Assembly (NCBI GenBank): GCA_951799445.1
Contig: OX637295.1
Coordinates: 1,054,001-1,118,000, forward strand
Direction of reading: 5' to 3'
Source of the DNA: Pseudisothecium myosuroides
Taxonomy: Eukaryota > Streptophyta > Bryopsida > Hypnales > Lembophyllaceae
Length of the DNA: 64,000 nucleotides
In this document: positions 15,247 to 62,650 of the stretch, one piece after another
Layout of the letters: every line of letters begins with the position of its first letter
Numbering within the stretch: the first letter of the stretch is position 1
Position numbers and translations under genes: made by a program
The notes under the pieces: model-generated
Told to the model about the DNA's origin: nothing
Seen by the model: the letters and a program-made list of their open reading frames with translations, nothing else
Databases searched by the model: none

Positions 15247-15295
15247 GATTCTCTGCTGCAGCGTTTCTAATCTGGCAGGGCTCAATGCGAGAGGA

Positions 15296-15312
15296 GCGAT
15301 CGATCGATCGGT
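15296..15312. repeat. Short GATC microsatellite in the leader of gene B
   Basis: A run GCGATCGATCGATCGGTC replaces the corresponding leader sequence of copy A. It creates the extra upstream in-frame start codon noted for gene B. Confidence 0.6.
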
Positions 15313-15555
15313 CAACTGGAAGAAGTGCAGGGAAGAGTTAATGTGATTGTTGTGGATGATCAGAGAGCATTTTGTAGAGAACAGCTTCGATCGTAATTTA
15401 GTTTGACCACTGGTGGCGACTACTGGGCTGACCAGTACAGTATTTGCTAGACCAGTCCACTCTGACAGCCAGACCTTGCGTCAGATCTTGGTCATATCTT
15501 CGTAGGCGACCAGCGAATATGACTTGGGGTTGGCTCTGTTGCAGTTCAACGGTAT

Positions 15556-32298: not shown

Positions 32299-34348
32299 TT
32301 ATGTTCTTATATATAAAATGCTCAAAACAATAGTTAAAGACATCCTTTGAATATATGACCAAAATGTCCTGTCTTTCAATTGAAATCCACTCTTATGAAA
32401 ATCAAACATTGATTGCACTAAATTTTTACTATACCTAGTAGATAAATGTGTAGTTTTTGGCTTTGGAGAACTCTTGGGAGGTTTGTATTTTTCATGAATT
32501 CTATACCATCCAATAGGAGTAAATTTTTTATCTGCTTTTACTTTTATTATTGCAATTCTAGAATAAGAGCCCACAAGATCAAATGAAACCCCTGTAACCA
32601 TAGGAATAATATTTTGTAGTAAATTTGTATTAGCTATGCCTACTTTATCAATTTGAACTGCCTTATAAGCAAATCCTTTACCAATTGGGTAGAGATTTGT
32701 CCAAGTGCATGTAGTGGTGAGTGATTGAAAATCATTTGTTGTCAATCCAATGACCAAAATATCAAAAACAACCATAAGTTGTGTAAATTTTTTATCCTCG
32801 TTTAGTGATGCCATTCCCGATGTGGATAGAGGACTAAATTTATTAAAAGATGCAAATGTGATACCAAATTCTTGTCCGCCACCTTTAGTTACTGCAATCG
32901 TGATATATAAATTTTGCATTTTCCCTGTTAAGTAGATGGGCCCACCTAATGGATTATTTGCATATTCGGGTAATTTAAAACTTAATGCGTATATGGTGAA
33001 TGTTGGAAGTTCAAAACTAGTTGGTGAAATGAACCCAACATCTCGATATATCATTTCTGCTAGCATAATTGGAATTATAGAAGCACGATCCATCATGGCT
33101 TGTGCTTGAGTACTTGATTTGAAACACTTCAATTTCACAATTTTTACAAATGCATCACCTGCACTTAGAAATACATCACAAGGATTTCCATACATAGTTG
33201 TTACTTTTAGGCCATAGTTTGCAATTTTTTCAAGTTTTTGTAAAAAAATATGTAGCGATGATCTAAATTCATCTAGATTTAAGTTTCCCGGTCGTTCGAC
33301 TATTCTTGAATAAATACTTGCAACTAAAAAGGCAATGTACGGGCCTGATCCAGATTGAATAATATTTCCATAACTAGCTACAGGATATTGGGGATCATTA
33401 GTCTCTATGAATTTCATCATATCTTTTATGAATTTTTTATTACCTCCTCCTCCACAACCACCTATGTATAATTATTTTTGGTTATTCATTGGTGACTAGA
33501 TGTATACTAGTATTGAATCATAATATGTTCTAAAACATTGATGTTATATTTTATATAATTTAATATTTATTCCATACAAATAAATGCTTGATTCATAAGT
33601 CAAATATAAATTTATTTATATACATTAATATGTGATATTTAAATCAATATTATGAATTTCATTATATTTATAATGTACTTATATTTTATTAAAAAAAACA
33701 CGTTAGATCAGACGCCTCTTTTAATATAATTGTTCATCAATAATTTAAATCTGAGTTCAATTCATGTGTTTTGATTTAATCATGTAAAAGTTTCATCAAT
33801 TCATAGTACATAATTTAATGCTAATAAAATCATATTTTATCATGTGAAACTAAGTTTTATAAACAAATTTAAACCACCTGCTGGATTTGGAAAAGTGATA
33901 AATGCATATGAATCTATGCTTATAAGAGCACGATAGTACATTCCTTTTTTTGCAAAGTCATAATAATTTGTAATTAGTGATGGTAGTGCTAGCAACTTCC
34001 TCTTTTGATCGTTTTTGTTCACCATAATTGGTGGAAATTCAAATACCGCACCATATGGCGCATCATTTGGCATAAACCGGATTGGTCCTGGATTAATTAT
34101 ATAAACTCGAAAGACAATCATTCCAGGTAAAACATAAATATCATTTACATAATTTGTTGTAGAAGATGGTTGAATGATGAATTCTTTTACAACCATTCCA
34201 CTTGAATCCATAACTACATAGCGGAATTCATATTTTAAAGATCCTAATAAATTACCCCCCGGAGTCCATCCATAGGCTAGCAATGAATATGAAGTAGTTT
34301 CAGCCACATTTGTGCTTGGTGGATCAACTTTAATCTCAACCGTTCCAC
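32299..34348 (-). CDS. Giant gene, exons 17-18: end of REJ-like region and unique tail
   Basis: Exon 17 (33878-34348) begins GGTVEIKVDPPSTNVAETT and has LLAYGWTPGG with LKYEFRYVV, the C-terminal REJ strands. It splices in phase 1 to exon 18 (32299-33461), which opens GGCGGGGNKKF. Exon 18 is helical at first (YIAFLVASIYSRIV), then beta-rich with a conserved-looking CTWTNLYPIGKG. It ends in a basic stretch and a short hydrophobic tail (MSLTIVLSILYI), too short for a confident membrane helix. No GPS cleavage motif, PLAT domain or channel follows before the stop. Confidence 0.7.
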
Positions 34349-34674
34349 CTAAATATAATGAAATTTGAAATTGACATTTTAATAAAATTATTTAGTTTTA
34401 TAACATTTTATAATTGACCAATTTTGGTTTTAAGAAAATGGCTTAAACGTTTTATCAAGACTCTTTACTTTGAAAATATTTGCAGAATTTGATACAAATA
34501 AATATTATTTGTAAAAAATTGATTTCATTTAATTCATTCCATTGCAATTGTGTAAACCACATTACATGGGATCTTAGGCCTCTGAAAGACTGTTTTGCTA
34601 TACGTGCCAAGAACTATATTTCTAATCAAAAATTTAAAAAAATAAAAAGGTTTTTAAAATTATACATACATACA

Positions 34675-34723
<49 letters not shown>

Positions 34724-34757
34724 TCATTCAAAACAATAATATTTTTTAAAAATAAAA

Positions 34758-34791
<34 letters not shown>

Positions 34792-37700
34792 TAAAAATAA
34801 TAATTAAAAAAAATTAAAAATTAAAAATTAATATCTAATTTGATGTGGCTAAAATACAATCACATTAGATCCACGTCAGATGTAGTATTAATTATTATTA
34901 AAATATTATTAAAATAATTTATTTGATTTATTTAATGTTTTTTTAATATAGAAGTTTGGAAACTGTAACTTGCGATTTTGTTGAGGCCTAAAATCTCATC
35001 TAATGGTTTCTATGGAATGTATTAATTTTTGTTCATACATAACCATTCAAGTGTATGTGAAAGGCATTTATTGTACATTCAAAGTACAAATAAAAAATCC
35101 TAGGATGTTGTGTTTATTATTAGTATATACATGTATCTTGTTGTTAATATGATGTAAATTGTACATTTATAAGTTGGTCTACAATCCTTGACAAATGGGT
35201 GGAAAATAGAAAAAAATTCTATATGGCGTATTTTATTAGTATATTATATTTTACAATTGAAACTAAATATAAAAAACTATTCAATTTTATTGTTCAACCT
35301 TCTTATATAAAACAAAATCATATTGGTATAAAATTTATCATGGAGTATTAAATAGGATAAATATACTCTGGCCCTCCAACCCTTCCAAATTAATAAAAAA
35401 ATATTTTATTATTATTTTTTATTTTCCATCAATCAAAAAATAAATAAAATAGATTCATTTATCATTATTTTCCTAGGTTATATATATATATATAGTGTAT
35501 CCGATGCTCACATGACCATTTGTATATTTGTATTAGCACATCAATGTATACCATATATATGGAGGTTGTAAAAACATATTTTATAAAGGTTCAAGGAAGA
35601 TTTAGTTTTTTTTTATATTTGGAAAGTAGGTAGATTGCATTATATATATAGATTTTAATTGTTGACATAAATTCACATAAATATTCAAAAATCGTATAAT
35701 TAAATTTGATTTCTGACTTGTATATTATATATGTATGTAAGCATATATACAAAGACGTAGATACATAAGTCTATATGAAATATAATATCATTTTGAGATT
35801 GAAATTTCATTAATTACTTAAAGAAAATTGCTCAAGTATTACTTTGGAAATATTATGGCATACAAAATTCAAAGCATTTGCATTGATTAAGAAAAAAAAT
35901 TTTTTTTTTTTTGGTAAATAGATAAAAGGTATGTATTAAATATAATTAATTTCTAAATCTATTCAATTACAAAATTATATATATATATATATATATAATT
36001 CAAATAATTGAAGACAATTGTTTAAAATAATTAAAAAAATATTTTTTGAGGTTGCATCCAAAATACAAAAATCAAATCACATGTGTGTATCTCTTGTATT
36101 TAACAATCCTATCATTGTCAAAGGAACAAAATTATATATATATATAAATATAAGTTTAACATTTCATCTCCATGTCTTTCATTAGATTGTAAGAATTTTA
36201 ATGCTCTTAAGTTATCAACTTATTATTAATTCTAATTTTTTTTTAAATATGCTTCAACCTTAAATTATAGATGATGAGCATAGTGAAGCAACTCAAGGAG
36301 TTAAGTAAACATTACAACAACACTATAAAGATATGAGCCTAAATATCTATCAAATAATCCCAATTGTCAAAATTAATAATTCAATAACAATCACTATTGT
36401 TTATGAAGAAAATTTAAATTAATGTAGAATATTATATCTAGCGGTTAAAGTCAATAAAAAATGTTTTTTTAAAACAAATACCAAGATTTTTGGGTATTTT
36501 AATTTAATTTAATAATAATGAGACAGAACAAATCTTTCTATGTTTTGGCATTTGTATAATTTAATTAATTATTTATAAAGCCTGCCAACCCTAATCACTG
36601 GATATGGTATACGTAATTGGGCATTTTGATATAAAATCCAATACAAATCCTATCACACACTTAAGGTGTATAGAAATGCTTGATTTGCACTTGTTTTGCA
36701 ATAAAATCTAAACTAAATACATGACCAACCTTTTTTGTCACAACTAATTCATTGATCTTAATAAAAAAAATTCAAGAATGGACAAGTACCTCAAGTGGCC
36801 TTGGTCTCTCCAAAGTTGTCTTCCTACCTAAGTCCTATATGCATTTATTACAAGCATTTACAAATTTATATAGCACCATTTTGTAGTGCAGTGTAACAAA
36901 AAAATTGTATATTGTTTTGGGAGCAAATTCCCAATCCTATCAATGAACTACATTAATTATATCAATCAGTGAACCAATTAAAAATAAACTAGAATATTAG
37001 ACCTGAAGGATCTTGTAAAGTTGAAAAGACTATTGATCCGTTCCCACTTGCTATTGGATTTGTTGCAATACAAGTAAAGTTGTATGTAGCTCCTCCGATC
37101 AAAGTCAAGGGATTAATTCGTAGAGTATGTTCATTAAGCTTTACCAACTGCATTAACAAAATATTTTAAAATATTTTAGAGAACAAACATATAATCATTT
37201 CAAATTATGATTTAAATATATTGAATAAGGTATGTTCACACTTGGTGTTAGGGATGTTGTTTGCAATGTGAATCTACGATGCTGTTTGCAATGTGAATTT
37301 GGTCTAAAAGTAGGTCTAAATTTGTTCCGAAGACCGCAATAACAACACTCTTTAACACCAAGTGCAAACATACCTTTAATAAGACAAATATCATCTTTGT
37401 ATTTAAAAAAAATTATATTCACAAATACCTGCATTTCATTGATTGATCGAGGATCACCATCTGATGTTACAAGCCAATCATATTTGCCTAATCCAAGGCT
37501 ACACATGATTTTGAGCATACGAGCTGGTGATACACCATATGTTCGTACCTCTGCTTCATTGTTAATAGTGGCTATAATGGTCATTATGTCATGTATAGGA
37601 GTAATTGTTGCAGAAGCTCTTGCTGCACTTCGTGATGGGTCCGTATAAGGAGCTCGTGCTACCTATTTATAATGCCAAATCCAATTTTCAAAGCAAATTT

Positions 37701-40700
37701 GTTACCATTCTAGTGGATATTCAGAAATGCGTTATAACTCATAATACAATCCCTCTTTCTACACCCTTAGATTTGCATAAAAAACAAATACGGACGTCTG
37801 TGATGAACTATTGGACTTGGCTTTATGTCCCATAATGCTCTTGAGCTTCTTGGCTTGTGAGCATTATCTAATCTATCATTTAGACTCTTAAATTTACATC
37901 TTCATACATTTTTACCTTAATATTCACAATTTGGAATAAATATTGTATCCGAGATTGTATCTACTTTTATACATATTTTATGTTGAATTATTTGATTTTA
38001 TTATTATTTATTTAAAATTAATTATAATTATAATTAATTAGTTTATCAAGGAAAATATACAATATACAATATAATTTAAATATGGTCACATACTGTAACA
38101 CTAAATGTGTAATTTGTTCCTATTGCCAACCATGAAGACTTTATTAGAAGAATCCGCTTAATTGATCCTGGAACATCAGGATATAATATTGAATCAAAGT
38201 GATCACTTAAAATAATATTGTCACAATTCCAAGATATTTCAAACGGATAAGGTTGATCAAAGCCCAATTCTATGGAATCATCGGGATCGTAGACTGCTAC
38301 TTCAACATATAAATCTTCATTTATATTTATAAATCTATTTCCACCTACAATTACAACAGCTAATGGAGATGAAATTGAGTGAATAGAAATTGATGATGTA
38401 GCAGAAAGTTGAGGTGACCCTTGTGGCCAAACTTTCACTTGAAAGGTGTAAGGTGAATTAGATCTAAGCATGTTTCCAGGCAAACTCAAACTTCGAGCAT
38501 TCCATCCAGTCATATCTTCATTGAGTATTGATGAACCTATAGATGACCATTCATACATTAAAGGAGCTTGAATTGGAGGTTTCATTTTTGTATTTTTCAC
38601 CTTTTCATTTTGTCCACATGTGCCATTAGGTTGGTAATAGTTTATGTTAGCTAAATAAGCATTTGCTTCTAATTCAATAGTATCCCATCTCATAACATTT
38701 AATAATGTTACATGATCTCGAATTGAAACCTGCATTTGAAGAGATTCATAGGTTTATATAATAATTTTAAACTAAAAAATATAAATGTATATAAATAATA
38801 GTATTAATAAAAAAATTCATTTTCAATATTTTATAGATGTTTCAAATAAAATTTATTAATTTTGATTGTATTAAGATTGATAATGCATTTCTTAAAATAT
38901 TTTTTTCTTCAAGAATTATAGTTCTTGACTTAATTTAATACCTGAGGAATTGATGTACGAGTTGTTTGAACAACATGTTTTGCCGTATCGGACATTCCAA
39001 GGTAATTGGTAACAATTACACTAAAAACATAAGTTTGATCAGGATCTAATTGTCCAGCAAGTATGGTAATCATCATTTGTGAAGGAAGACTTTCTAAAAA
39101 CTTTCCAAGCTTTCCAAGTTTAATAAGATTGGTGGCACCTTTCACATTGTATTGATAATAAAAAGGTTGCCCAATGGCTCCAATTGAACCAGAAGCATCA
39201 AGAATTACATCATCACATACACTTGAAATATGTGGACCATTTAATTTTGCAAGAGGAAGGGGAAACATGTCTATGATGCCAAGGGGCACCCATCCGGCAA
39301 TTGCAATTGATGTATCTCCTTTATTATAAATACCATTAGAAATTGAAACATTGTCACCTGCACTAGAGTCCATAGACTTTAAATTTGTATAATAACCAAG
39401 TTGAATGATCATAGTTGTTGCATCTTGAAAAATACAATTTGGATTTACTCCTATTTTTTCCATGAATGATGAATCAAGAGTATTATTACAACGTTGCCAT
39501 CCTGAGGCATATGTACTTGAAAGCCCTTCAAAACTTACATACCCTGCATCTGTAGGAATATCAAATTTAACAATAATGCTACCAAGATTTTGTGATAATT
39601 TTGCATTTAAAGCTATAGGTCGTGCGCTTGATTGAATTGCAATGTAATAATAGGTAATAATTGTATTAGCATCCCATTCAATTGTAATATTGATTTTTCC
39701 ATATGAAGTTGGTGTAAAAGTCACGTGTGATGTGTATTTTGGAGCTATAGGCATACACCACAATGAACCATGCCGAGAAACTCCTTCGATAGAGGATATT
39801 GCACATGGTGAAGTTACTATGGCATTGATAAAACCATTATTATATGATATTTTTACATTTGGAATTGTGTAATTTGGATTACTTTTGGCATCCAAAGCAA
39901 TAATTGTAAATGATTCCAATTGTCCTGCTTCATAAGTTTGCATACCTACTGAAGTTTTTGTATTCTCAAGTACTACTGGTCCTGGCCATACATCTACCTC
40001 TAGTAAGGTTAATGTTGGTCCTCCATTACGGCTCAAAGCATCACCTACAACAATGTGATAGTGACCAACTTTTATAGGAGTAAAATTGATCCAAAATTGC
40101 CCAGTTGTATCATTAGAAGCTACAATTATAGTGTTATACTTTGCGTATGTGACATTATCTTGAAAAACACAATAAATGTCACTTGGATTTGTAATTGGAT
40201 TTTGATACTTATCACTTGCAGATATAAGCAAATTTGTAGAAATATCAACTTGCATAGGATAAACAGAATCTACCATCAACATATTTGGAAGCCATACATC
40301 AGAAGCGATTACTACTATTTGATAAGCAAAACATTTTTCAGTTCTATTTAAGCTTACAATTACATTATATTGTCCAACAATAGTTGGTTGGAGCCTCATA
40401 GTATATGTGAAGTCACCATTATTTATTCCAATTGATGTAGGTCCAGTATCATCACCAAATGGAATTGAATGCAATTTAGCAGAAAAAACATCTAGAAAAT
40501 ACAAATTATATATTTGTTTGTTTTTATAAGAATCATACGCTTGTACAGTAATTTCAATTTCTTGGCCAGCTGTTACTTTTGTTATTCCATTAAAATCTAA
40601 TGTACTTCGAACAACTTGAGTATTAAATGCATTTGATATATCAGGAATAAGTTGGATGGTGAATCCACTATTTTTTACAAATGTGAAAACCCCATTATCA

Positions 40701-43700: not shown

Positions 43701-46700
43701 ATCTTGTATACCCTAGCGTGCAAACATCCTAGATGATTTTGATCTACATTTTGGTAGGAATATGACCAAATTGAATGGAATTGGCTTCTATTTCTACTTT
43801 GTCCTATTGTTTCATCAAATTACTCTACAAACACAATTAAAAATTAAAAATGTTATTTAAATTCTATTTTTCAAGTTTGATTCTATGTATAAGAACTCTT
43901 TAGTATGCAATTGGTAGCCTTTGTAAATCTAATAATGATTATAGATTAGAAAAATCAACATTTAATTTGAATAGAGGCATACATGTATAAATATTAAGGT
44001 CATAATGGCCTGGTACACTTGCCACATATTGACAAACTATGGACGAGGGATCTATTGAAATTGAGCAATTTGTTTGTATTGTAGTAAGATTTCCTTCTGA
44101 TGACAATATTGCTGATATTTCAGCTAATGCTATGTCCTGAATATTACTAATGGCATTGTTAAAAGCATCATATAATAAAATGTTGAAATTTGATACTTGA
44201 CCAACAATTGACATTGTTGAACCAAAACCTAATACCTAATCATTTCCAACAAAAATGATGTAAATAAGTTGATGTATTTCATAATTAATATAAATATTTA
44301 GTTCTTTATGTTTTATTTTTATTAATTTTCAAATTGAATTGAGTTATTATTGAATATTTATATATTCATAATTACTTGATTTGTTTATTTAAATTATTCT
44401 ATTTTAAAATTTTATTATTATAAAATTTTATATTTAAATATTATTTCATTAAGTAGAAATAAAATGTGATAAAAATTTATTATTTTCAACCAACTAGATT
44501 TTTTGATGTATATCTTGCATACTTGTATATTGGATGGAGATAATGCCCCGGGAATAGTTGGAACTATAAGTCCTGTAGTCGGAATAAATATTTCACTTTT
44601 ATCATTTTTCCATACAATATTGAAAGAATATGTATTTCTTTCACTTGCTTGCAAAGGTAAAAAATCAAGTAACCAATATACATATAGATTTCCAGTCTCT
44701 GAAGAAATTTGTTGTTGTCGGTTTAATGGCACAATAGCAATAGAATTGTCAGGTTGAAGTATTCTTGCTTGAAATCCATCTATTTCACTTAATATATGAT
44801 CTTGCAAATTAAGATAATCATCAACAGCTTGCACTTGAATTTGCACTTGATCTCTTCCTGCACGATATGTTGTACAATTACTAACCATCATCACTATGGT
44901 ACTTTCAATCATAGAAGGAGCAGCCACCACCTATATTTTTTTAGAATAAAACTTATTTCAATGAATAAAATAAAACAGGAAAAGCTGATTAAGAAAAGAT
45001 GTCATTTGATCATTTAAATTTCAAATGGATTATATAAAATAATGTCCTAAAACCATTACTTACTTTTAGTGAATATCCACTACTCCTTCCACCAAGTGGT
45101 TTACTTAGATATCCAACAAGAATCAAAATAGTAAATGTTCCAGTCTTTATTGTATCGTATTGAAGACTAAATGTTCCATCACCATTATCAATAGAATTAA
45201 CTGTGGGGGGTAAAGGTGGATTTTCTACATGATTTGTTGCAACAATACTAAGTCGTATATAATCACTTATTGTTGACGGACTATTTTGCAAAGCTATACC
45301 TCCAGAGTCGACTAATTGTACTATAATGTGTCCAGAAGTTCCAGCCATTATTAAACCTCCAAGATCACCAAATGCTATACATTTATCTGGATTTGGATCC
45401 ACTATTTCTTGTAAAATTGGAATAGTAAATTTGTATCCACTTCCATCAACAGTGTTAACATGAGAATGTGCAAGAATGGCATTATTGCTGCCATCAAAAT
45501 TTGTAAAGCTAACATTAAATGAAATTGAAGATGGTGGAGTATTACTGGGAAGAAGTTTCCAAGATATAGCACAAAAATGATCATAAATTGGTTTTCCTGT
45601 AAATCCAATCATAAGGTTTGGGTTCCATCCTGTAATAGAGAAATTTTGACATAATGTGATATCAGGATAAAGCAAGTTGGAATATGAATCACTAATTTCA
45701 ACATACATGGTATTTAGAGTACACAAATTATCTTCACATGTTACAGCTGCCATAACTCCAGGTCCAAAAACACGAAGTGTGGATGGAGAAGCAGTTCCAT
45801 TTGCAATGATAGTTATATGAAAAGGTCCAAGTATAGAATTTGTTGTATTTAATCCATTCATGTCATTGTAAGCCAAATTTATATTCATCAACCCTGCCAT
45901 TGTTGGTGTACATGATAATATTATATTGCCTCCTGAAATAGAAAATAATGCACCTACTAAATTTGAAGGAGTTATAGTATAGGTACTATTTCGAAAATTA
46001 TTTCTAGATATTGTTATTGTTGATGCATTAGAGATTCCATTCTTATATTTAGTTTGTAAACTAGGTGCATTGGCTATATTAATTGGATTTCCAAAATTAT
46101 CACAAAGAAAAATTATGAGTGTCATAGGCATTCCAATTGCAATGCTAGTTCCGTCACTAATACCAATTCCAATTGGTCTTATTTGAGTAATGTCTGGTAT
46201 TCCAGGGCCTACATCAAAACTTGAAATAGTTGCTATTAAACCGTCAAGAGGTAACAAGAGCTCGTCATTTAAATAAACAAATAAATCATAAGCTCCCGCT
46301 TTTATTACTATAAATGATATGGTATAAGTTGTATCAGCATTATTTAAAATAGTTGGTGTCATAAGTGAAAAAAATTCTTGAACATCTTTTGACGTTATTG
46401 AATTATAGCCAGTCTTATAGTTATGAGATATATGATTAGGCCTTTTGAACTTTGTATCATGTAAAAGACGACGTAAAGGAGGTACATATGTTCCAGCTGG
46501 TGCTACTATTGTTGAAACAATTAATGATTGGGAATACGATGGTTTGTTTCCATATTCATCTTTAGTTTGGAGAAGAAATGTTGAAGTTAATCCTTTAATA
46601 CCAGCGCTACGACTTGATAAAGAAAGTAAAGAGCTTTGAGCATCTATTGGAGCTGGATGAACTTGAAATGCAAATGGACTTCCCGCAATGTCAATATATG

Positions 46701-49700
46701 TAGAGTTTGTGTTGGATGCCCATAAAGCATGTATGGTATATGTGTTAGGTATTGATGTTGTACTTGTGATTTTGGAAACCGCTGTGAGTGTAAAATTAAA
46801 TAAATATACACAAATTGAATTTGAAGTGTCCATTGTAACTATTGGATTTGTTATAAAGGGACTAACTCCAGCTCCAAATCCATCAAAACCAGTATCATCC
46901 GTAGAAATTGTTATAGTAGGAATTGTTGCATTATTACACATTGATTTATCTTGCAAATTTTCATTTGTGTCAACTCCTACAATTTTCATCATGTTCAACA
47001 CGCCAGCAACGACTTGAGCTGGAGCTTTGTTAGTTGATATTTTTTGAGATGGATCAATAAAAGATAAAAATGAAAGTTCTACAGATGTATTAGCTGGCAA
47101 AGATGAAATTATTACTGGTTGTCCGATCATAATACCTCGAATATCACCTAGTCTGAGGACAGCAGTAAAATTTCCTATTAAATTTAAAATAAAGTAGGCT
47201 ATATAATGTCCATCATTTGTGATATTGGTTGCCTTTCCCATACTTGTGTACATAGGTGTATCATATGGAGATCCACCTAAGCGAGCAATCACAACACTGA
47301 ATTGTCCTGAGCGGTCACCATGGCATAAATTATTATTTTTATCTCTACAAAGAAAGTCTATTGTAGTCTTTGTTCCCATTATTGATGTTAGAAAATTAGG
47401 TGTAATAATAGAACATAATTGTGGCCAAGGCTCAAATGCTACAACTTTTAAGGGATTGGCAATAGAAACACCATCAAATCCAAGCCTTACAACTACTTGA
47501 AATTGAAGGTCATCGGAATGAAATACATTATACCATTTGAATGTAATGTGATCATCAAACATTGTACATGTTCCTACTTGCCAAGGAGTATTCCATATGT
47601 CAAGTATAAAAGAGGAACAATTCAACAATGCACGGGGGATAGGATTTCCAAACTGGTCATTGATTGCATACATGGATGTGGTTCCATTCATTCCTGGTAG
47701 CACATAATAATGCATTGTCCTTGGTACATATGATATAGCAGCCAAATATGGGGGACCAGTAGTAACAATAAAGCTTGTTACAACTAAAGTGTTGTTATTA
47801 GTTCCAAAGATAGGTATTAAATAATCATATAATGTTGCTGTCAAAGTATATTTTCCTGCACGGTTTAAAAACACAACTGCCCCATACATTCCTAATGAAT
47901 TGTTATAAAATGTATTGGTTCCTCTTATTTTTTCTCCATAGCTATTGATAGCCATAATTTGAAATTTGTCTTTCTTATAGTCGTAGTGATTATAATCTTG
48001 TTGATTACCAAAGTGATCAAGAGCATAATAACCTCCCGATATGATACTTCCGGCTACATACGTTGCTTGAAGGTTATAACTAAGTTGAAAATATGACTTT
48101 AATGGACTTGATCTTCCAGGAATGACATTTAAAGAAATATTATTTGGCATTCCATTAGTAATTGTAAGAGTTGCTGTTGTGGCAGTTGTTGCCATATATG
48201 AAAGGAAATATGTTCCATCATTTTCATCAATAAGGCTAATTATATTTCCACCAGTCATAAATACTGCTGGTAGATTTCCACCAGATGTTATTGTTGTATA
48301 CGGTCCACCCAAAGGTTCGTCAAAAGCTATGAGTTTGAATGATGCTCTTTCCCCGGCAATAACGTTGAAAAATTGTGGACATATAGCGATTGATGGTGGA
48401 ACATTATTGCATCTCGGATAGTATACTATGTGGTTTTTTTGAGGAGATGGAATTACAGTGAGTGTATTTATAGGTGAAGGATATCCATTTGGTACTTGAA
48501 GATTAACTGTATAATTACTAGGTAGAGGTGCACTCCAAGTAACTAAATAGCGGCCTCCTGAAAGATGTCGATCATTAACTGTAGCCTGTCCACATGCAAG
48601 TGAAACATAGTCACATAATGTAACTACAAAACGATCACTAGGAATGCTTGAATGATCACGAGCATATCCTTGAGAGTCCTGGGCAATTAAAAAAAATGAA
48701 GACAACTCGTTAGCTATGCCCTGACGGACTTCTTCTGCTTTAACTTGAGCAAAATCTCCAGCAATTACTCGAAATGATACTTTTGTAGAAGTTGAATCTG
48801 GATCTAGACCTCCGATGTAAATGTTGCATAATCCCGTAATATTTGGGGTCTTGAAAGTGACGATCGATGACATGATGGAGTGAGGTGTAAAAGTGATGTC
48901 CGAATGAGGTACCAAAATGCCACTAGGTCCAGTTATTGTCATAGGTATTGTTGAAAAATTGCCAAACCAAATATTTCCATATATATCTCTTGGAGTTACG
49001 TAAATTGAATACATTGAATTTGGTGTAGGCTCAATACTTGTCACACCACTAATTGTACACATGCGTGCTATTGGACTACTTGCTACTGCATGAATAATTG
49101 TAGCACTTTCAATTGTTTTACCAATAAGAGGTATTGAAGCAAAATATGAAGCTGCTATATTAGGCAAAGTGAATGTGAATAAATATGGATTTGTTGTAGT
49201 ACCATTTGGGTGTATATAATTTAAATTACAACCCCCAGAATATAATGCTCCATTTACATCTTGAACGCGAAGAAGGCGAGCTCCTAAGAAAGGCAAATTA
49301 TTCATTAATGGATCAATAAGGTTGCCCCAACTATCCATGAGGGAAAGGAGAAGAGTTCCATTTCCTCCAACAGAAAATTCCAAACTTGAAACTGTTATGT
49401 TATAATAGATAATATTTGGTGGACCTGTAATCAATTTGTTCATTTATATATTAAATTTTATAATACAAAATTATTTCACATTTTTAAATTAGACAATCAA
49501 ATTCAATCATATACAAACACACATACATACATGAAAAAGAAATCATGCATTATTAATTTGAAAAAAAATCAATTATAGATGCACATTTGATTTGGTAATT
49601 TACAAGTTTTACAAACATAAAATTAATAATGAATTGTATACAAAAGTTAATATTCAAACGTAATAATATTTTTCAATTTTATTTTTCAAATGTACTTTCA

Positions 49701-52700
49701 TGTACCAGGTTCACAAGTAGCATTAAAAGTTGCAATTTGTGTAGCATTGTAAGATGCTAAAATGCTTATATTTGTAGAAGCAATGGTTTGATTTATGCCA
49801 GGCAAAAGCTCAAAAATATGTCCATTATTTATTGCATTAATTGATATATTATTCCAATGAATAATAAGAGGAATAGATTTAGAGAGTTTTGACCCATCTA
49901 TTGTATTTCCATACATATCTAGCAGTGCTATCCAAATGGGGGTTAATTGTCCAGCTATCATTTTTCCCACCATCAAATTTCCAATAAAACCTATAATAAT
50001 ATAATTCTATAATTTTATTTAAAATATCAAATACAAAATAATTAAAAATATAATGTAGGTGTAAAACTAAATACATATTTTTGATTAAATTCATTTTTAT
50101 GATTGTTTATTTTATACAAATAATAATAATTTCTATAATTTTACTTCAAATAAGTCAAGAAATTATGTAAATTTTAGCATTTCTATTAAATGAATTTTAT
50201 CTTTTTGAATTTATAAATATATACTAAAATAATGAAGGATATTGTCATATCAATTATAAATTTAATGATGTTATATAATCATATGTTATTAAAATACATA
50301 ATTAAAATTTTATATCATGATTTTAATAAATGATGCTAAGATCTCAATCAATATACAATTAATATGTTTTTGATGTTGCAAGAAGTATATGTAATTTTTT
50401 TTCCAAATAGAGGTAGTCCAAGCAATATTTACAAAAATGTTGAAAAAATTGAATATAGAAAAATCAGCACAATGTTGTACATTGTATATTTCCAAAAATA
50501 GAAATAAAAGTTTATTCCTCCAAAAATTATATGCAAAAATAGGTTGCTGAAATGATTAAAAATCACATTAAAACTTTATTTTGAAGTTTGTTTGGGAATA
50601 TATATATATATATAAATTTTTGTGCGCGTAAATAATACATACTACCCATCATTTTTAAGTTACAAGAGGCTCTTTCTCAACCTATTAATGTTAAGAAAAA
50701 ACAAACTGTGATCCATGTACTAATTCAAAAGAATCGCACTTGCAATTTGAAGTCTTTTTAATTTTTAGAACATCTCTTATTCAAGTAATTACATAATCTT
50801 TGTAGATGCTTTGAAATCTCAATTTTTTTGGGCTAAACAAAGTGGTGAAACACCCCAAAATAGAAAACATAAACATTCAATCAAAGATTGTTATGAATGA
50901 CAAGATAGATTTAAAGAGTATACATAAATATGCAGGGTGTACAATAGTCCTATATACCTTAGTTTAGACTCTCAAATTTTTAGATTTATTTTGCAAAATT
51001 ATGACCAAGAAATACCCCATTTGGAACACGCCACTTAGAAAATAGGATGTTTGCTTCTACAATCATCCAACCTAAATCATTTTATTCATTTAAAACAAAT
51101 ATCTTGATTTAAGTTTATGTAATATATTACCTGAACTAATTGTTGTATAAGGCTGAACATAGAAAGCATACGCATTAGATCCATTCAACATATTTCCTGT
51201 AGAACCAATGTATGCTGTTGCTATGTACAATCCTGCCTTTGTCACTATGGTATTTGCTGATGTAGTCCCCAAACCTGCAGTTACATTCATATATACAACA
51301 CCTCCCTTTTTATTTTTAAGTGCCACAACAATTGAAGCACTCCATCCATTGGAGAATGTATAATTTGTATTTCCTTGATTTCCATATACATCTTGTAATA
51401 AAAGTGTTGCTGTAATTGTATCACCTGCAATTTTTTTAGTAATGTTTGTTGAAGACATACCCACCAAAGTAAAATTACTATTTTGTCCTGATACCATTCC
51501 AGGTACTACACTTAAAGTGACATTGTCAGCAAGTATTGTTCCTCCGTCAATAATTACATGAATTATATATGAACCAGATTGTGTAAGAATTAATGGATAA
51601 TAACACCCAGGACTTGTTCTTTCTAAGTTACACAATATTTGAAGAAAAACTGTGCCATTAGGATCAAATACCTAAAATATTAATTAATATTCATGTATTC
51701 TTCTATCATCATTCAATATTTATTAAATCTATTATTTTAAATTAGAAATTAAATAGAACTAAATTTTAATGTAATTTTATGGATCCTACAATAATTTGAC
51801 AAAATAGATATTATCATCATAAAAAAAAAAAGCAGAGAGTACAAATATGTATCTAAACATACACAAACTTATTAAAAATCAATTTTAATTTATACCTTTA
51901 ATGAAATTAAATGAATTAAATTATATTTTGGGAGAATATCTTGAGAATCAACACTAAAAATTGTTGGCCCTGCTGATATAACTGTATTTAAGTCAGGTTT
52001 TATATTAAAAATAGATGAAGCTTGAAGTGTTGTCAAAACTTCTAGAATAAAACTAATGTTGCCATTTGTAATCACAATATTTTCTAATAATATTATTCCT
52101 GCAAAAAAAAATTAAAATTCATGCAGTTATTATTAATTCACAATTAGATTTTTAATATAATAAAGACACCTACCTTAATAGAAAATCAAATATCATCAAT
52201 TGTAATATACATAATCTAGCAAATTTGATATTGTGCTAACAAAGGACTAAATTAGACTACACATAAATATGTAATCCAAGGTTGAAATCTAAAATTTCTA
52301 TTTCTACTAAAAGTTGTGAGTTGAGAATAAAAAAATTCTTAATATTGAGTGAATGATTGCAATTATAAATGTGTACACCAATGTAAAATTGAGTGGAAAA
52401 TTTCCTTCTCAAAGCAATGCCCAAATCTCCATAATCCTTAATCTCATGATAAATTCAACAATAAGATCTTTTATTAATTATTTATGTTTTATTAATGTTT
52501 TGGATTGATAAACATCACATATAGAAAAAAACAGATTTTCAAAACATATAATTAAGATATTTTCATCCCTTCTCGATGGTGAAGTTTCATCTATCAAATT
52601 CTATATAAACAAATGTGTGTGCCATAACAAACAAATCATGTATTTAAATTTGAGAATCAATCAAGCAAAGTAAAAAAATTCAAAAGAAAAATATATATTT

Positions 52701-55700
52701 CACGTGTGAAACAAATTTGAATTAAAGAAGTTAAGTGATGGAAGGAAACATTAAGTTGCTAATGAATTAGACATAGAATTGACTATTGATAAATGTCAAT
52801 CTCAACATTGAGAATGTTATCATAAAGATTGTTATCATTTTCTTACTTCTAAATGGTGCAAGATTTATTTATTTTAAGACTTAAGTAATTTGATAACTTC
52901 AATTCTTTTAGAAACAAATTAATTATTTTATTTTGTTTAGAAAACCCGTAGAAAATGATGAACAAGGATTAAGGATATTTAATAAGGTTAAAAACTATAT
53001 GACAAGAGTTTTTCAATTTAAAAAATTCTCTCATAAAATGTTAAAAGGAAAAGAAAGACAAAAGCAAAGTTACATATTTTCTACAAAGAATTTAAGTCTT
53101 TCTATAATTGTATTCAATTATACACAAAATACTAATCTATAACACAAGTTATAACAATAAACAATTAGCTAATACTATGTAGATTTTTTTACATATCACT
53201 TTACAATCATCTAGGGCGTGCAATACAATGAGATTTAATTAAAATTTAAAAAAATTAAAAGAAGATACATAATAATAGAACAACATACATAAATATGAGA
53301 TGCAATAAATATATAGTAGCCATCACATTTGTACACAATATTGTAGAAATACTAATATCTTATTGTCAAATACATAATTTTTTTATTCATAAATTTATTT
53401 TGAATAAAACCACATTGCAAAGGAATACAATGTTAATTTTTTATTTAAAAAAATATGAGGTAATAAAGAACAAAAATAAATTTTTAAATAATTTGATTTT
53501 TATTTAAAATGAAACTTATGCTATAGGGCCAATGATTTGACAATGGTGCTAGTATGTGAGTCCAAGAATGCGAGCTTGTGAGCATTGAGCCTACAATATA
53601 AGTACCTATAATATAGATACCAGACACTATAGAAGATGTATGTATTATAAACACCTATAATATGGGTATTTGTAACATATATATCCTATAATCATAGACA
53701 TTTTCTATTGTATATACACCTATAACATAGGTGTGTAATATTCTAGGCATATGGGCTCACATAATAGCAACCCTTAATGATTTGATATGATATAAGTTAA
53801 TTTTTACAGATAAAGACATATAATTCAAAAATTAAAATATCTCGTTTTAAAATTTAAACTTTTAGATAGGATTGGCTTAAATTCATATGAAGACTCTAAA
53901 TCATGTTAACCCGTGAAAGATCAAAGCTTCTTTGGAAGACAAATGAAAAATTACATAGTTCTTATCATCTCATTTATTGGCATGATTTTTTAAATTTCTT
54001 CCTTAGGATAGGAAAAAAGATTAGTTTTAAAGAATATCATTTTTATTTTCATTGGTGTTAAGGAAAAAATTTATGTCATCTAAAGCAAAAATAGTAAACT
54101 AAAGTATATTAAAAAATTGTCTCTCATAGAGCATGTTTATGTCTACATTGGCAATCTTATACTCCCTCTGTCTCAAAATAAGACCAGTGTTTCCTTTGTA
54201 AAATACAAAGAAAACACTGGTCTTATTTTGAGACAGAGGGAGTATGTTTTATATATTTCAGCAAATATTTTAATGTTTTCCATTTGAATTAGTAATGAAT
54301 AGGTTAACAATATTTGTACTGGTAGCACCTATCAAATCATATATTTACAAATATAATGTGGAAGTTGTCCAATTAGATTTGTATACAATATGTTCAAATT
54401 ATGGAGTGAATATAATTACAAAGTATGTTATTAAATTCAATATGATACTAGCTTGACTTGTGCTAGGCACTAGCATCAAAGTCATCAAACAAATTACCAT
54501 GTATAATTAAGGATACTAAAACAATTCAAGATCTACATGTGCTCTCTAGCATATAAGTTTATATTGTGCCTTTATCAATGTACCAATGGTAAACATATTA
54601 ACATGCGGACATTTTTAGAGCTTGATGTGGCTCCAACTTCAAAGTTCATTATTCATTCCTCAACTTGCTTTAGATGCAACTTTCATTTTCTTTCAAGAAA
54701 ATTTACTAAATAACATTCAAGGGCTTGAATAGGTCTACAAAATTAAAATCAACTTGTAACTTTAAAATCCTTGTGAGGACCTTATATATTTTTTGGATGA
54801 TTTAAGGGATACTTCTAAGATGGTGAAAAACATTTTTTTATCCAATATTCTTTAGAGAAGTTGCTCTAAACCGTTTTCGACAAATGGTGTTCAATACTCC
54901 ATCCTTTTTTTCTACACAAAAAATCTACAAATTATAGTATTAATTGTGTATTTTAGCAATTCCAAAGTTATAAACATGCATTATAAAATAGAACTTAGAA
55001 TAATAATTTACTGAAAATCTCATTCAATAGTTGTAAAATATGCCACATAGATCGTATCCATATGGTTAGATCAACTATTGCACTAATCAATTTCTTGCAA
55101 TGAAATTTGAAGCCAAAAATTGAAAATTCCTTTTACAATTGATCAGAGATTGAATATTTGTGAATTTCATAAGATTTCTTTTTCTTTAAATTCAAAATGT
55201 TAAGTTCTAATCATAGTGATTTTTGAAGATTTTTATTTTACTTTCTTATTCAAATCATTTTGGAAGGATCATTTTTTGGACTAAAAAAGGTTATTTTTTG
55301 AGGCTAGACCTACTAGTAATCTTTGAATATTAGGATATTTGCAAAGCAAAGTCTTCAAAATCAATTATGTATGAATGTTAAAGAACTAACACAAGAATCT
55401 TCAAAAAAATTAATGGATGAATAAAGGCATTTTTGTATGCTTAAGATGTATTTGCATTCATCTATTGCTCAAAATTTGAACATCTAACCCTTGAAGGATT
55501 AAGCATATTTGATATTTGATATTTTTTTTATTCACTATAAAAAAATTCAAAGTAATTTCAAATTTATAATCCCCCTCCCCCCATTTTGAAATCCTTATTA
55601 ATTTATAGAAGACTTGTAATTTCATTCATACATAGCTACAAAATGGGAGCATACAATAGAACTTCAAAGTTTGAAAAAGCGGTCATAGGCTTGTCCTTTT

Positions 55701-58700
55701 GGGAGCATGCAGTAGGACTTCAAAGTTTGAAAAAGTAGTCATAGGCTTGTCCTTTCAAGGTTAGATGGTCACTTTAAGCAAATCCTACCTTACAAGACCA
55801 TATATCCTTAAAAGAAAAACTGGTGTAATGGCCCTTGAGGTACAATTCCACAATAGAATCATCATGTAAGGTAAGGACACCCAAATGCGTCAATTGCTTA
55901 AAAGGGTCACTCCATCAGATTGCTCTCATTATGTACATCTCCTAAATCAATATGTACCTATTGTTGAAGAAACAATTTTAGAACATCTACCAAAAAAAAC
56001 TTTGATCCCTCATAACTTTTGTGTACGGTATCCAAATGATGTGTTCTTTGGTGCATTGAAATCTCCTTTCATTTTGCCAATTGAAAGATATATATGTTTT
56101 TTACGAGTCTGATAATAAGAAGAACTGAGCTCACTGGAAAAAGTGGCGGTTTTAGATGTCCTTATCTTAGACAACCACCAAACATCACACGGTCTCCAAC
56201 ATACAATAGATTTAGTATATATCTAGTAACTCAAGAAAGTATAGAAACTGTGAAATTAGGCAGCAACAGGTTGTGAAAGGGTTGAAGAGAATACCAGTAA
56301 CAGGCAGGAAGCGCGTCGGCACAGCAATGACCTTCCAAATGCCTCCCACTTGCGAGCTGATAGTGAATGGAACAGGGTAAGAAATTCCAGATGATGGATC
56401 CACTTGATTCAAGGTCACAGCAAATGGACAGGGCCCCAGAATCTGCGCAGAGGGCACAATGCCTTGTTGATCTGCGCTTTGGATGTTGATGGGCACTGGT
56501 GATCCTGGTGTGTAGCCAGCGGGTGGAAAGATTGTGCTAACGTAGCTGTAGAACGGTGATGGTGCTGCCGATACATTGAAGCTCCCAATTGGGCTTCCAC
56601 CTGTCCAACAACCACGTGGTTCAAAAAGATTACGAGTGTCAGGAAAATAGAAAAAAAAAGATTTTTGAAAAGTATTGGTGAATATTTAATAAAACATGAT
56701 TTGGAATTTTGAGACCTAAGGTAGAGGATACTAAACCGTTGGTGACCTGATGTTGTTTCCTAAATTAACTCCTGTTATCAACAAGTCATCCATTTACACT
56801 CAGTTGGACTTACTAGCAACTTGTGCAAAATGGCTAAACGTCAATGGCATTTGAGCGGAAATGGGGTTGTCTACTGTCCCCTTAATAGTGTTCTACAACC
56901 TCCCACTTCGAAAGATTGCAAAAACTATCCAATAAATTGAGTGATGAATGTTTGCTCTCCACAAATTTGGATCCAAAGATCTCCCATAAGCTCAAATTCA
57001 TCTCCCAGAAATCACACTTGTACATATGTTGAAAAGTCCAAATGTTATCCTCTATTTTCAATAAAGATTGAGAAGGCAAAGAGGATGAATCGACATACCT
57101 GCACAACTAGGGTACATGGACGTCACTGTATAGTATCCAGGCGTGGAGATAATGATGCGAATGAGGAACGAAATTGGCCCTCCACCGCCGTTATATGTCA
57201 CTCCATTGCTTACTGTTGCATTCACAGGATCATACGAGGGGGACAGATATGTCACCCTTATATTTAATCCCATTGCAGTATCGGTGCTTGTGCAAACAGG
57301 GCCTGAAGTCAACCTCCTTCTCGGTATCACTTCCTAACAACACCCAAGCCTCTCTACGTTCAGCAATGTAGACGACCCCAGGAACAAAAGCTTTTAAAAA
57401 ATTACAAGAATGCTACACAATTTCATACTTGGTTCAAATACAGTATCAGTGTGCATCAGAACGCATTATCATTGCCAAGAATCAAATTGCTACGTCTTGC
57501 GAGAAGGAAATGCCGGGCACAGGTACATTGAGTCCTCTCTAATTGCACTCCAATCAGAAGCCAAGATTGTGCAAGTACCGAGAGTTGAGTATGTAGACAA
57601 GGTTGGAGAAAATGCAATTACAGAGGGTCGGGTGAATACAGAAGGTGGGGAGAAGGCATTTACTTCATTTGCCTTGAAGGCAAGTCCGAAGGCTAATGTA
57701 GTTTGCGTTGGTGGCATCTCCATGGCCATCCGAGCTTCTTTCTGCCCTGTTTTAGAAAGAGTATGTCATCGGCATGTTAGTTGAACCCACCCTTTCTATG
57801 CAAGTAGTAACTTTCAAACTCCCATATGTATGCTGCAACTAGCGCCTTGAATCGGGAGTTGTAATGTTGGGGACTTCGGGAAAAAAACGTCATGCTGTGA
57901 ACTTCAAAACCAATCGTAGGTACATCACATTCTGGAACTAATTAGAAAACCATCCATTTGGAAGACACTATGAGTAGACTTAAGTGGAGCTGTTACAACG
58001 ATGAAGAGAAAACAATAGAGGAGAACATGGGGAAGAATCGAATGACTTGGATAGGAGAGAATGGAGTACTTATCGAACCAAAAAAATATCTTTATGAGTA
58101 AACTAAGGGATATTTATCAAGCAGCCAAGAGTCCTCTAGAGGATGAGGGCTCTGTTCAAGAACGCTATGTATTGCATGCCATTTCAACCTAACCTACAAT
58201 TTTCCCAAGGAAAGGATATCGATTCTTGGTCGATTTACCTGGTGGAGAGATGGGATAGAATTCTTGGTCGTTTAAGGAAACAGAAGAGGCTCCTTCATCG
58301 CACTGGATGTAAAGCTCAACTGAGGCTGCAGACCTATTGTGACTCTGCGGAAGAGTGAGCTGTGCAGGGGCCACAGTGCCATCTCTGAATCCACACGAGG
58401 GTTTAATTTGCTTCAAGTCCAGTGACTCTGGGAAGACAGATGGATTCAACGCCAACAACCCATCCTTGCCAAAGCCCGACAAAGCCTCGGGTTCCATTCG
58501 GTCACCATCTGCATCACCACTCCACATCCATAAGTAAGGGTATGTTTGCACTTGGTGTTAGCGAGCCAGGGATTACGAATTCACTTCGGAATGCCTTTGG
58601 ACTATAGATTCTCTTTGCTAAGACCACTCTAAACACCAAGTGGAGATATACCTTAAGATTTGGGTTATCCTTGCAGTCAAACACTATTTCAGGTTCACAA

Positions 58701-59782
58701 TTCTACCTAAAAATGGCATGAGTTCCACACCTCTCATACTTTCATTCAAGAGAACAACTTCTACTGATTTACTGAAACAAGGTTAGCAGCCCAACTTAAA
58801 TGAGTTTAAGGAGAACTATTCTGTACAAATATTGCAACAATCCATTTGCGTGGGGTCCCATAAGGAAACTCATTTGCGGAGGGTTCTCTTTTCCATGGGT
58901 TGAAAAGTCACCCATTTGAGAAATGAGACTCTACCACAATTAATTGAAAGATGCTACCACGAGATACATTGTGCATGGGAGATGCAATCTAAGTTTGTGC
59001 TGCTACTTTTGTACATATTTCAGTGCATTGGAATCCTCTCTAAAATAGGGGGCCAGACCTAAAAAACTCCATTCTGATAATAGAAGCCATTCAAGACAGC
59101 GGAAAGCCTTGCACGCATCATGAAGACGAAAGAGAGCATTTCACACTTTACCGTAGAAATTGAAGCTGCCAATGTCTACATACGGGTCGCCACTGCGGGA
59201 GAACGAAAGCTCCACCACGCCTTTGGTGCCAAATGCAGAAGGAATATTGGGCATAACGAACTCGGACTCCACCACTGAATCACTGATTGCCCCAATGTGA
59301 TCCGCAGCCAGGGTTGCCCCGTCTAAACCCAACTGCAGGTAATGATCCGACAATGACCATGGACTGCCTGTTGTGGAATGCACTTTGATGCGCGTCCCGC
59401 CCTTGCTTGTGCCCAGGATTGGCTCGAACGTGGGCAGCCAACCTGGAATGCAAAGACACAAAAAAGGAAGTGTAAGCAAAAGCCATCACTAGTATAAAAT
59501 GGTTTTGTGCTGAATCTGCATTGATGTTAACACAAATTGCATTGAAATTAACATAGAATTAAAACAAAACCATTTACGCCCATGGCGAATTCATACTGTG
59601 AAGGGATCGAAATCTTTAAACTGAAGCTGTTGCATTTGAAACAAGTTTAGGGTTGGGGATTCTGTTCAGCATGTACCTTCCGCAGCAATTGAGACGATAA
59701 AACCCAAGTTGAGGAGCACAATTGCTGCCACTTTGGCAGCTGAAACTTTGCTGGACCTCAGTGGATCCATTTGCAGAAACAT
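32299..59782 (-). CDS. Giant secreted filamin-repeat/REJ-domain protein (18-exon model)
   Basis: I join 18 exons: 59677-59782, 59152-59442, 58239-58508, 57579-57746, 57099-57302, 56295-56600, 51896-52098, 51131-51671, 49706-49990, 45064-49424, 44523-44930, 43983-44235, 38942-42642, 38094-38729, 37429-37662, 37003-37147, 33878-34348 and 32299-33461. Every junction has GT-AG and matching phase, and together they encode about 4,581 residues. Order: signal peptide (1-36), IPT/TIG-like module (about 38-132), filamin-like immunoglobulin repeats (about 220-3,580), a PKD-like module (about 3,600-3,700), an REJ-like region (about 3,700-4,190) and a unique tail. Repeats are recognised by recurring D-x-Y-G-N-type turns such as DSWGN, RDIYGN, KDEYGN, CDNFGN and CDAYGN. 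REJ domains occur in sperm receptors and polycystin-1; filamin repeats occur in the plant gamete adhesion protein GEX2. Neither a channel nor a clear membrane anchor is seen. A gamete or cell-surface role is inference. Exon 4's 3' end and the last exon's end are least certain. Confidence 0.75.
34349..37002. other. Large intron 16 of the giant gene
   Basis: It is extremely AT-rich, with several TA, TACA and TAA microsatellites and no ORF of note. A short stretch near 36640-36720 (GCTTGATTTGCACTTGTTTT) recurs near 42920 in intron 12, so small repeats are shared among introns of this gene. Confidence 0.5.
34661..34790. repeat. Compound microsatellite (CATA)n-(TA)n and (TAA)n
   Basis: A CATA run of more than ten units at about 34663-34702 passes into a TA run to about 34722, and a TAA run follows near 34757-34790. 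It lies in intron 16 of the giant gene. Confidence 0.9.
37003..38729 (-). CDS. Giant gene, exons 14-16: REJ-like region
   Basis: Exon 14 (38094-38729) has the REJ order of motifs: YTFQVKVWP, then IVGGNRFININEDLYVEV with YDPDDS, PFEISWNCDN and LAIGTNYTFSVT. Exon 15 (37429-37662) continues DPSRSAARASATITPI. Exon 16 (37003-37147) has LRINPLTLIGGATYNFTC and ATNPIASGNG. These are typical of the receptor-for-egg-jelly module shared by sea urchin sperm receptors and polycystin-1. A small MITE sits in the intron between exons 15 and 16. Confidence 0.75.
37229..37376. mobile_element. Small MITE with TAA target site, copy 1
   Basis: The terminal inverted repeats are GGTATGTTCACACTTGGTGT and the inverse ACACCAAGTGCAAACATACC, flanked by TAA on each side. 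The element is about 148 bases with no ORF, in the intron between exons 15 and 16 of the giant gene. TAA target sites and GG-starting ends suggest a PIF/Harbinger-type (Tourist-like) origin. Confidence 0.7.
38942..42642 (-). CDS. Giant gene, exon 13: filamin-like repeats and PKD-like module
   Basis: A single 3,701-base exon follows the acceptor TTATGCAG. About nine repeat turns are visible (YDLANNS, CDAYGNIRT, RDFAGHQ, DEHQNNI, RDALGTI, RDLNGII, YDSYKNK, SDKYQNP and LDAKSNP). The last about 110 residues change character: CDDVILDASGSIGAIGQPF, a PKD-type opening with the D-A-S-x-S motif, then LDPDQTYVFSVIVTNYLG, the closing strands. It leaves in phase 0 at TSIPQ. Confidence 0.85.
42643..43982. 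other. Intron 12 of the giant gene
   Basis: AT-rich, with a short TAA run near 42822. The plus-strand ORFs at 43159-43516 look like chance. A patch around 43580-43700 is less AT-rich but shows no coding pattern. Confidence 0.5.
43983..44930 (-). CDS. Giant gene, exons 11-12
   Basis: Exon 11 (44523-44930) starts VVAAPSMIESTIVMMVSNC in phase 0 after a T-rich ATATAG acceptor. It contains QAVDDYLNLQD and leaves in phase 0. Exon 12 (43983-44235) contains ILLYDAFNNAISN and CQYVASVPGHYDLNIYT, the end of a filamin-like unit, and leaves in phase 1, matching exon 13. Confidence 0.75.
45064..49424 (-). CDS. Giant gene, exon 10: about 1,450 residues of filamin-like repeats
   Basis: A single 4,361-base exon is entered in phase 1 at GPPNIIYYN and left in phase 0 at GYSLK before a consensus GTAAGT donor. 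It has no internal stop. About eleven repeat-start turns are visible in order: MDSWGNLIDP, PRDIYGNIWF, QDSQGYARD, LDHFGNQQD, NDQFGNPIP, DKNNNLCHG, VDTNENLQD, KDEYGNKPS, CDNFGNPIN, DSYSNLLYP and VDSGGIALQ. They are about 95-150 residues apart, as expected for filamin repeats with insertions. Potential N-glycosylation sites are frequent. Confidence 0.85.
49706..52098 (-). CDS. Giant gene, exons 7-9: filamin-like repeats
   Basis: Exon 7 (51896-52098) enters in phase 1 after a T-rich TTTGCAG acceptor and leaves in phase 0. Exon 8 (51131-51671) begins VFDPNGTVFLQI and includes LLQDVYGNQGN, a typical repeat turn; it ends in phase 1. Exon 9 (49706-49990) includes WIALLDMYGNTIDG. The N-glycosylation motif N-x-S/T is abundant, in keeping with an extracellular protein. 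Confidence 0.75.
49991..51130. other. Intron 8 of the giant gene
   Basis: AT-rich, with a short TA run near 50600. I see nothing coding and no element boundaries. Confidence 0.5.
54162..54242. mobile_element. Stowaway-like MITE, 81 bp, near-perfect palindrome
   Basis: The ends read CTCCCTCTGTCTCAAAAT and its inverse, flanked by TA on both sides, the target duplication of Tc1/mariner elements. The arms pair for about 38 bases with one mismatch and almost no loop. The CTCCCTC start and the AAAATAAG block match the well-known Stowaway consensus of flowering plants. Confidence 0.9.
55645..55756 (+). repeat. 56-bp tandem duplication
   Basis: GGGAGCATACAATAGAACTT begins at 55645 and recurs as GGGAGCATGCAGTAGGACTT at 55701. 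Both are followed by CAAAGTTTGAAAAAG and GTCATAGGCTTGTCCTTT. Confidence 0.85.
55880..56100 (+). repeat. Dispersed repeat, copy 2
   Basis: This is the plus-strand counterpart of 10016-10330, with TTTAGAACATCT, CCTCATAACTTTTG, TATCCAAATGATGTG and TTTGGTGCATTG in the same order. It lies in intron 6 of the giant gene and keeps an open frame of 75 codons. Confidence 0.65.
56295..59782 (-). CDS. Giant gene, exons 1-6: signal peptide, IPT/TIG-like module, first filamin-like repeats
   Basis: Exon 1 (59677-59782) reads MFLQMDPLRSSKVSAAKVAA then IVLLNLGFIVSIAAE, a good signal peptide; the second Met (59768-59770) is an alternative start. Exon 2 has the IPT/TIG pattern of a proline followed by GTSKGGTRIKV. 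Exon 5 supplies GLNIRVTYLSPSYDP and exon 6 PVPINIQSADQQG, both filamin-like strands. All introns are phase 1 with G|GT junctions. These exons and their introns are visibly richer in G and C than the rest of the gene. Exon 4 (57579-57746) uses an inferred donor CTCG|GTACTTG because the frame otherwise stops soon after. Confidence 0.65.
58538..58653. mobile_element. Small MITE with TAA target site, copy 2
   Basis: The ends are GGGTATGTTTGCACTTGGTG and the inverse CACCAAGTGGAGATATACCT, flanked by TAA at 58535-58537 and 58654-58656. It is about 116 bases, with ends like the copy at 37229. It sits in the intron before exon 3 of the giant gene, about 30 bases from the inferred acceptor. Confidence 0.75.
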
Positions 59783-62372: not shown

Positions 62373-62650
62373 GGCCGAGAAGAATGGCGAAGAAGGCCAA
62401 CACCTTGGGGGGAGGGTCTGTGGGGGGAAGAAGATGAACCATATCCGGGGGACAGGACGAATGAAACCCTGAATGGATGAATGATCGTTTAAGCGGTTAA
62501 CTGAAGTTCTGGGGTTTAGGCGGGGGTTGCGGATTAGTATATAGTATTAATGATAATTTATAAATATAAAGTGTTATTATAATTTATAATGCTATTTTAT
62601 CTATTATTTTAATATTTTAATGATATTTTAATTTAATTTAATTATTATTT
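62373..62650. other. Promoter side of the Ycf33-like gene and AT-rich spacer
   Basis: The first 150 bases are moderately GC-rich and should hold the leader and promoter of the minus-strand gene. From about 62530 the DNA becomes a nearly pure A/T spacer up to the retroelement leader. Confidence 0.45.

Follow-up and report, generated by a model that had tools for sequence, protein, structure and literature searches.

A giant moss protein combining filamin/GEX2-type Ig repeats with a REJ region and a predicted GAIN-like domain

The window analyzed here is a stretch of 64,000 nucleotides from the moss Pseudisothecium myosuroides (contig OX637295.1). On its minus strand, one open frame runs from 59782 to 32299 through GT-AG introns without an internal stop (19 exons, 4,656 amino acids). 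This frame encodes a real, conserved giant surface protein of streptophytes: filamin- and GEX2-type immunoglobulin (Ig) repeats are followed by a REJ region and a C-terminal domain with a predicted GAIN fold and a membrane anchor of predicted type, and homologues occur in another moss and in Chara. At about even confidence, we regard it as a giant membrane-anchored adhesion or recognition protein of the moss, most likely placed on the gamete surface; its expression in gametes and its roles in adhesion and load sensing are what we infer. An earlier note on this DNA, based on the sequence alone, had proposed a giant ectodomain protein of 18 exons and 4,580 residues. The joined frame held, but the exon count and the length are different here, and the GAIN-like domain and the missing channel part are features additional to that description.

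Gene model, repeats and REJ region

To build the model, we trained a simple splice-aware gene finder on the longest open frames that the locus itself contains. Its two largest exons (49424-45064 and 42642-38942) contain 1,453 and 1,233 whole codons, respectively, and have no stop in frame. Because each of the other frames carries 92–128 stops at the 33–34% GC of this DNA, these giant exons are not products of chance (log10 chance of a frame this long, −45.6 and −41.7, respectively). The features of the model, all on the minus strand, are as follows.

59677..59782, minus: putative exon 1, carrying the start codon and signal peptide, phase 1 end; gene-finder model
59152..59442, minus: putative exon 2, IPT/TIG resemblance seen only by eye; gene-finder model, no Pfam/PDB match
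58508-58239, 57937-57812, 57746-57494, 57316-57099, 56600-56295, minus: putative exons 3-7; gene-finder model, no Pfam match
51896..52098, minus: exon 8; gene-finder model
51131..51671, minus: exon 9, Ig-repeat array by motif; coding signal, no Pfam match when taken alone
49706..49990, minus: exon 10, Ig-repeat array by motif; gene-finder model
45064..49424, minus: exon 11, filamin-type Ig repeats; Pfam, relatives and fold matches
44523..44930, minus: exon 12; alignment with Ceratodon P0001 begins near model residue 2,385
43983..44235, minus: exon 13, aligns to Ceratodon P0001
38942..42642, minus: exon 14, filamin repeats (best 42583-42284) and GEX2-type Ig (best 41626-41369)
about 39241-38942, minus: PKD-like stretch at the 3′ end of exon 14, by eye
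38094..38729, minus: exon 15, REJ start at about 38558; REJ match from the exon alone
37429..37662, minus: exon 16, REJ; spliced profile match
37003..37147, minus: exon 17, REJ; spliced profile match
33878..34348, minus: exon 18, REJ end at about 34181; Ceratodon alignment and spliced match
32533..33461, minus: exon 19, GAIN-like domain, predicted, limits approximate; a helical part, then a beta-sandwich part, no HL/T cleavage motif
32299..32532, minus: end of exon 19, a linker next to the membrane, then a short hydrophobic C-terminus and the stop

The filamin-like repeats of the earlier note were confirmed in Pfam: exon 14 gave Filamin at 97.7 bits (cut-off 26.9) together with Ig_GEX2_N at 61.2 bits (cut-off 27), and exon 11 gave Filamin at 53.8 bits. 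About 3,100 residues lie ahead of REJ in the AT-rich exons alone. The repeat motif was found 28 times in a loose form (shuffled mean 13.3, shuffled maximum 25), which is not a direct count of the more than twenty repeats proposed earlier, and a home-made filamin hidden Markov model recovered just its seed repeats and two weak ones. The best matches in PDB sequence searches were filamin B (E 0.0015, with the Ceratodon protein P0001), the IL-23 receptor (E 0.02, with alignment A1, in which the exon 17 row, one of eight, is misaligned and was kept in) and filamin C (E 0.057, with A2). The AlphaFold model of the first 1,100 residues of exon 11 is mostly of low confidence (mean predicted local distance difference test score, pLDDT, 41); in the fold comparison of this low-confidence model, filamin folds are among the best matches, which mainly cover the first ~325 residues.

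The REJ region, also named earlier, stands. It scored 34 bits from exon 15 alone and 86.3 bits over 337 residues (cut-off 25) when spliced across exons 15-18, the spliced query being the end of exon 14 plus exons 15-19 (the C-terminal 997 residues). Since the score rose on splicing and the match spans exons 15-18, those junctions are independently supported. Two other proposed modules were not confirmed. One is the PKD module: exon 14, including the PKD-like stretch, gave no PKD match in Pfam, and the sole PKD match in the window (16.7 bits, under the cut-off of 27) overlaps the REJ start. The corresponding stretch of Ceratodon scored 12.2 bits against the same cut-off. Another is the IPT/TIG module at the N-terminus, a resemblance seen by eye, which was dropped after neither a Pfam family at E ≤ 1 nor a PDB match at E ≤ 10 was obtained. 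In the spliced C-terminal 997 residues, Pfam gave nothing beyond REJ and the sub-threshold PKD at E ≤ 1, with neither PLAT nor a channel, and no lectin was matched in the Pfam scans made of model parts.

Relatives and the C-terminal domain

The first protein search (2,070 candidates scored, 3 listed) yielded the hypothetical protein M758_4G186200 of Ceratodon purpureus (P0001), with 49% identity over the whole queried part. In the pair alignment, 95–100 of every 100 columns are paired in each window from column 100 to column 2300. The five 3′ junctions (14/15 to 18/19) are gap-free residue by residue, and junctions 12/13 and 13/14 lie inside windows where all 100 columns are paired. The other two proteins listed, an insect filamin (P0002, E 1.6e-3) and one with nearly the same Pfam set (P0003, E 5.6e-3), were set aside. 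The second search (7,980 scored, 2 listed, one of them the query) yielded a hypothetical protein of Chara braunii, CBR_g31375, in which Filamin, GEX2 Ig and REJ occur in the same order as in the window and Ceratodon. REJ reached 114.6 bits in Ceratodon and 48.6 bits in Chara. The Chara and Ceratodon proteins are 29% identical over the PKD-REJ part (172/586) and 20% over the last domain (56/283), within which BLAST detects a stretch of 138 residues (E 1.8e-5).

Both relatives share with the window protein the order of filamin/GEX2 Ig, REJ and the C-terminal domain. They differ from it at their starts: the Ceratodon model begins only near residue 2,385 in the numbering of the 4,656-residue model, and the Chara model starts with a hAT-transposase-like sequence. 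In the third search (7,991 scored, 4 listed), exon 11 was found as single open frames (P0005-P0008; 82, 73, 54 and 43% identity), all four of which continue in frame beyond the 3′ splice point of exon 11 and diverge there, and three of which have the 5′ edge in common. No relatives were found on viral contigs (query P0008) or prokaryote genome contigs (query A2). That no other plants turned up carries little weight, because the first search missed Chara although it was within the length range. With these named relatives and the Pfam support for the repeats and REJ, the earlier idea of a giant ectodomain protein is sustained.

For the C-terminal domain, which is 56% identical to its Ceratodon counterpart over 307 residues, a GAIN fold is predicted by modelling: the predicted fold of the Ceratodon counterpart matches five GAIN domains. 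The cleavage motif H[LIVMF][ST] is absent from the aligned domain in all three proteins (window, Ceratodon and Chara), so that the domain, judged by its sequence, is apparently uncleaved. In the hydropathy scan, none of the three proteins showed a multi-pass region after this domain. The Chara protein ends in a hydrophobic stretch of 31 residues (hydropathy peak 2.89) and a short tail. The hydrophobic tail of Ceratodon barely passes the scan (1.61 versus the threshold of 1.6; an internal segment reaches 1.62), and the end of the window protein is shorter and was unflagged. The anchor is predicted to be transmembrane in Chara and like glycosylphosphatidylinositol (GPI) in the mosses.

One gene or two, and neighbouring features

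At the thresholds used, exon 1 is the sole exon in 60500-52110 (8.4 kb) that has an ATG, resembles a signal peptide and ends in a phase-1 donor. The GC content at third codon positions (GC3) is 0.38–0.63 in the seven 5′ exons (0.38–0.51 in putative exons 3-7) versus 0.12–0.23 in the other twelve, and a sharp GC drop occurs near 56 kb. The putative exons 57937-57812 and 57746-57494 are doubtful, and the acceptor at 57316 is poor. This leaves two options: a single gene that spans a compositional border, or two genes joined in the model. We consider it probable that 59782-32299 is one gene. That a short gene for a secreted protein (59782-56295) precedes a separate giant gene (52098-32299) is doubtful, and would be compatible with the functional readings below. 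The sharp break of GC3 between the two exon blocks, the break of base composition near 56 kb, the weak donor of exon 7 and the 5′ part being devoid of any Pfam match all favor such a division. However, exon 8 requires an upstream phase-1 exon, and the intervening 4.1 kb contains neither a signal-peptide exon (at the thresholds used) nor, on a coding measure with AT-rich exons as its training set, a stretch above 6; exon 1 is the only exon of its kind in the 8.4 kb scanned.

The compositional border belongs to an AT-rich island at 24000-56000 (mostly 20–37% GC per kb, 25–31% per 4 kb), with which the exon GC3 shifts and which ends sharply near 56 kb within the longest intron of the model. Further, shorter AT-rich stretches occur at 10-13 kb and 16-19 kb. 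An inverted repeat at 54159-54245, whose 87 bases are a 94% match to their reverse complement, lies in the intron that separates putative exons 7 and 8; it has CTCCCTCTGTCTC ends with TA on both flanks, and we take it to resemble a Stowaway-type miniature inverted-repeat transposable element. Elsewhere in the window, the following features were noted.

3325-6074 and 13213-15532: two copies of a gene cluster of the Bet v 1 family; main aligned pieces 86-93% identical, some smaller pieces about 81-84%
8405-9349, minus: uninterrupted GNAT acetyltransferase frame, bacterial-looking (64% GC, GC3 0.77), between two copies of the plant gene cluster; either a transferred gene or a contaminant
19722-21041, minus: uninterrupted bestrophin-family frame (Bestrophin_2, 268 bits)
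61683-62546, minus: DUF751 protein (65.6 bits); start plastid-targeting-like by eye
63064-63660, plus: fragment resembling a retrotransposon gag (DUF4939 at 54.7 bits; Ty3_capsid below its cut-off of 29.1, at 27.1 bits)

Function and comparison with known systems

On a gamete surface, the long filamin/GEX2-type Ig array would extend outward and bind the partner surface, the REJ stalk and the predicted, uncleaved GAIN domain at the membrane would bear or sense load, and one C-terminal hydrophobic segment would serve as membrane anchor, the channel of polycystin-1 being absent. Several points weigh against this reading. One is that Foldseek, among the 50 matches listed for the C-terminal model, returned multi-Ig, cadherin, complement and similar chains and no GAIN entry; GAIN ranked top only on a second look with VIA-align, which carries the warning that most matches span residues 4-446. 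Another is the membership of the seven 5′ exons, which is the weakest point of the model because their GC3 is unlike that of the other twelve. The last is that other plant filamin-repeat proteins are tied to stress and auxin in the part of the literature cited (PMC9777546).

An adhesion protein of the cell wall or surface of vegetative cells or the gametophyte, unconnected with gametes, seems improbable, since the GEX2 Ig domain and REJ each indicate gamete proteins by family history. A surface protein or mechanosensor of the flagella (cilia) of swimming sperm, acting as polycystin-1 does on cilia and perhaps with a separate PKD2-type channel, is likewise unlikely. REJ followed by a GAIN-like fold is the domain order of polycystin-1, and the named relatives come from a moss and Chara, both with swimming, flagellated sperm; however, neither a channel or PLAT match nor a multi-pass region was found.

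In this protein, one plant molecule unites fertilization-linked module sets of different kingdoms, namely, GEX2-type Ig repeats and a polycystin-like REJ plus a GAIN-like domain. If expressed in gametes, it would offer a direct moss knock-out test of egg recognition by swimming plant sperm and a non-animal, apparently uncleaved, single-anchor case for a role of REJ-GAIN without a channel or a G protein-coupled receptor. More tentatively, and as an unlikely reading, the REJ-GAIN module of animal sperm receptors and the GEX2 Ig array of plant sperm may have already been joined in one streptophyte gamete-recognition molecule, which was retained only where sperm swim. If so, REJ-GAIN would be an ancient eukaryotic fertilization module and not an animal one.

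The most familiar examples of REJ-type modules on the membrane side are animal sperm receptors and polycystin-1. In the polycystin-1/sea urchin REJ family, REJ precedes a GAIN domain close to the membrane, and the window protein likewise has REJ ahead of a membrane-side domain with a predicted GAIN-like fold. Unlike that family, the window protein has neither a GPS cleavage motif nor a multi-pass channel part, and the scans above matched neither PLAT nor a lectin in it; polycystin-1 has other modules at the position of the filamin/GEX2 repeats. Because no channel region follows, the window protein falls outside the polycystin-1 family, despite the similar membrane-side part.

On the plant side, Arabidopsis GEX2 is described as a protein of the sperm surface that has filamin repeats in its extracellular part and is required for gamete attachment (PMC4160995). 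FUS1 and GEX2 are united in a single adhesion family of green plants, characterized by seven Ig domains (PMC12069490, PMC8777248), and the Marchantia GEX2 orthologue is reported to be expressed in differentiating sperm (PMC6290024). This family resembles the window protein in its filamin-type Ig repeats and GEX2 N-terminal Ig domain (PF23616), predicted to be extracellular, and in the single C-terminal anchor seen in the Chara homologue; the window protein differs in being far longer than seven Ig domains, as given there (PMC12069490), and in carrying REJ and a GAIN-like domain. Among the titles and abstract openings covered, no plant protein was named with filamin, REJ and GAIN together, which is no proof of novelty. 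A REJ domain outside animals is also present in Esi0130_0068 of the brown alga Ectocarpus, a male-gamete protein for which its paper argues gamete recognition; unlike the window protein, it has 1,427 amino acids, 6-7 predicted transmembrane segments, a GPS and a channel-like domain (PMC4700764). The modules of the moss protein are known, and their combination appears new.
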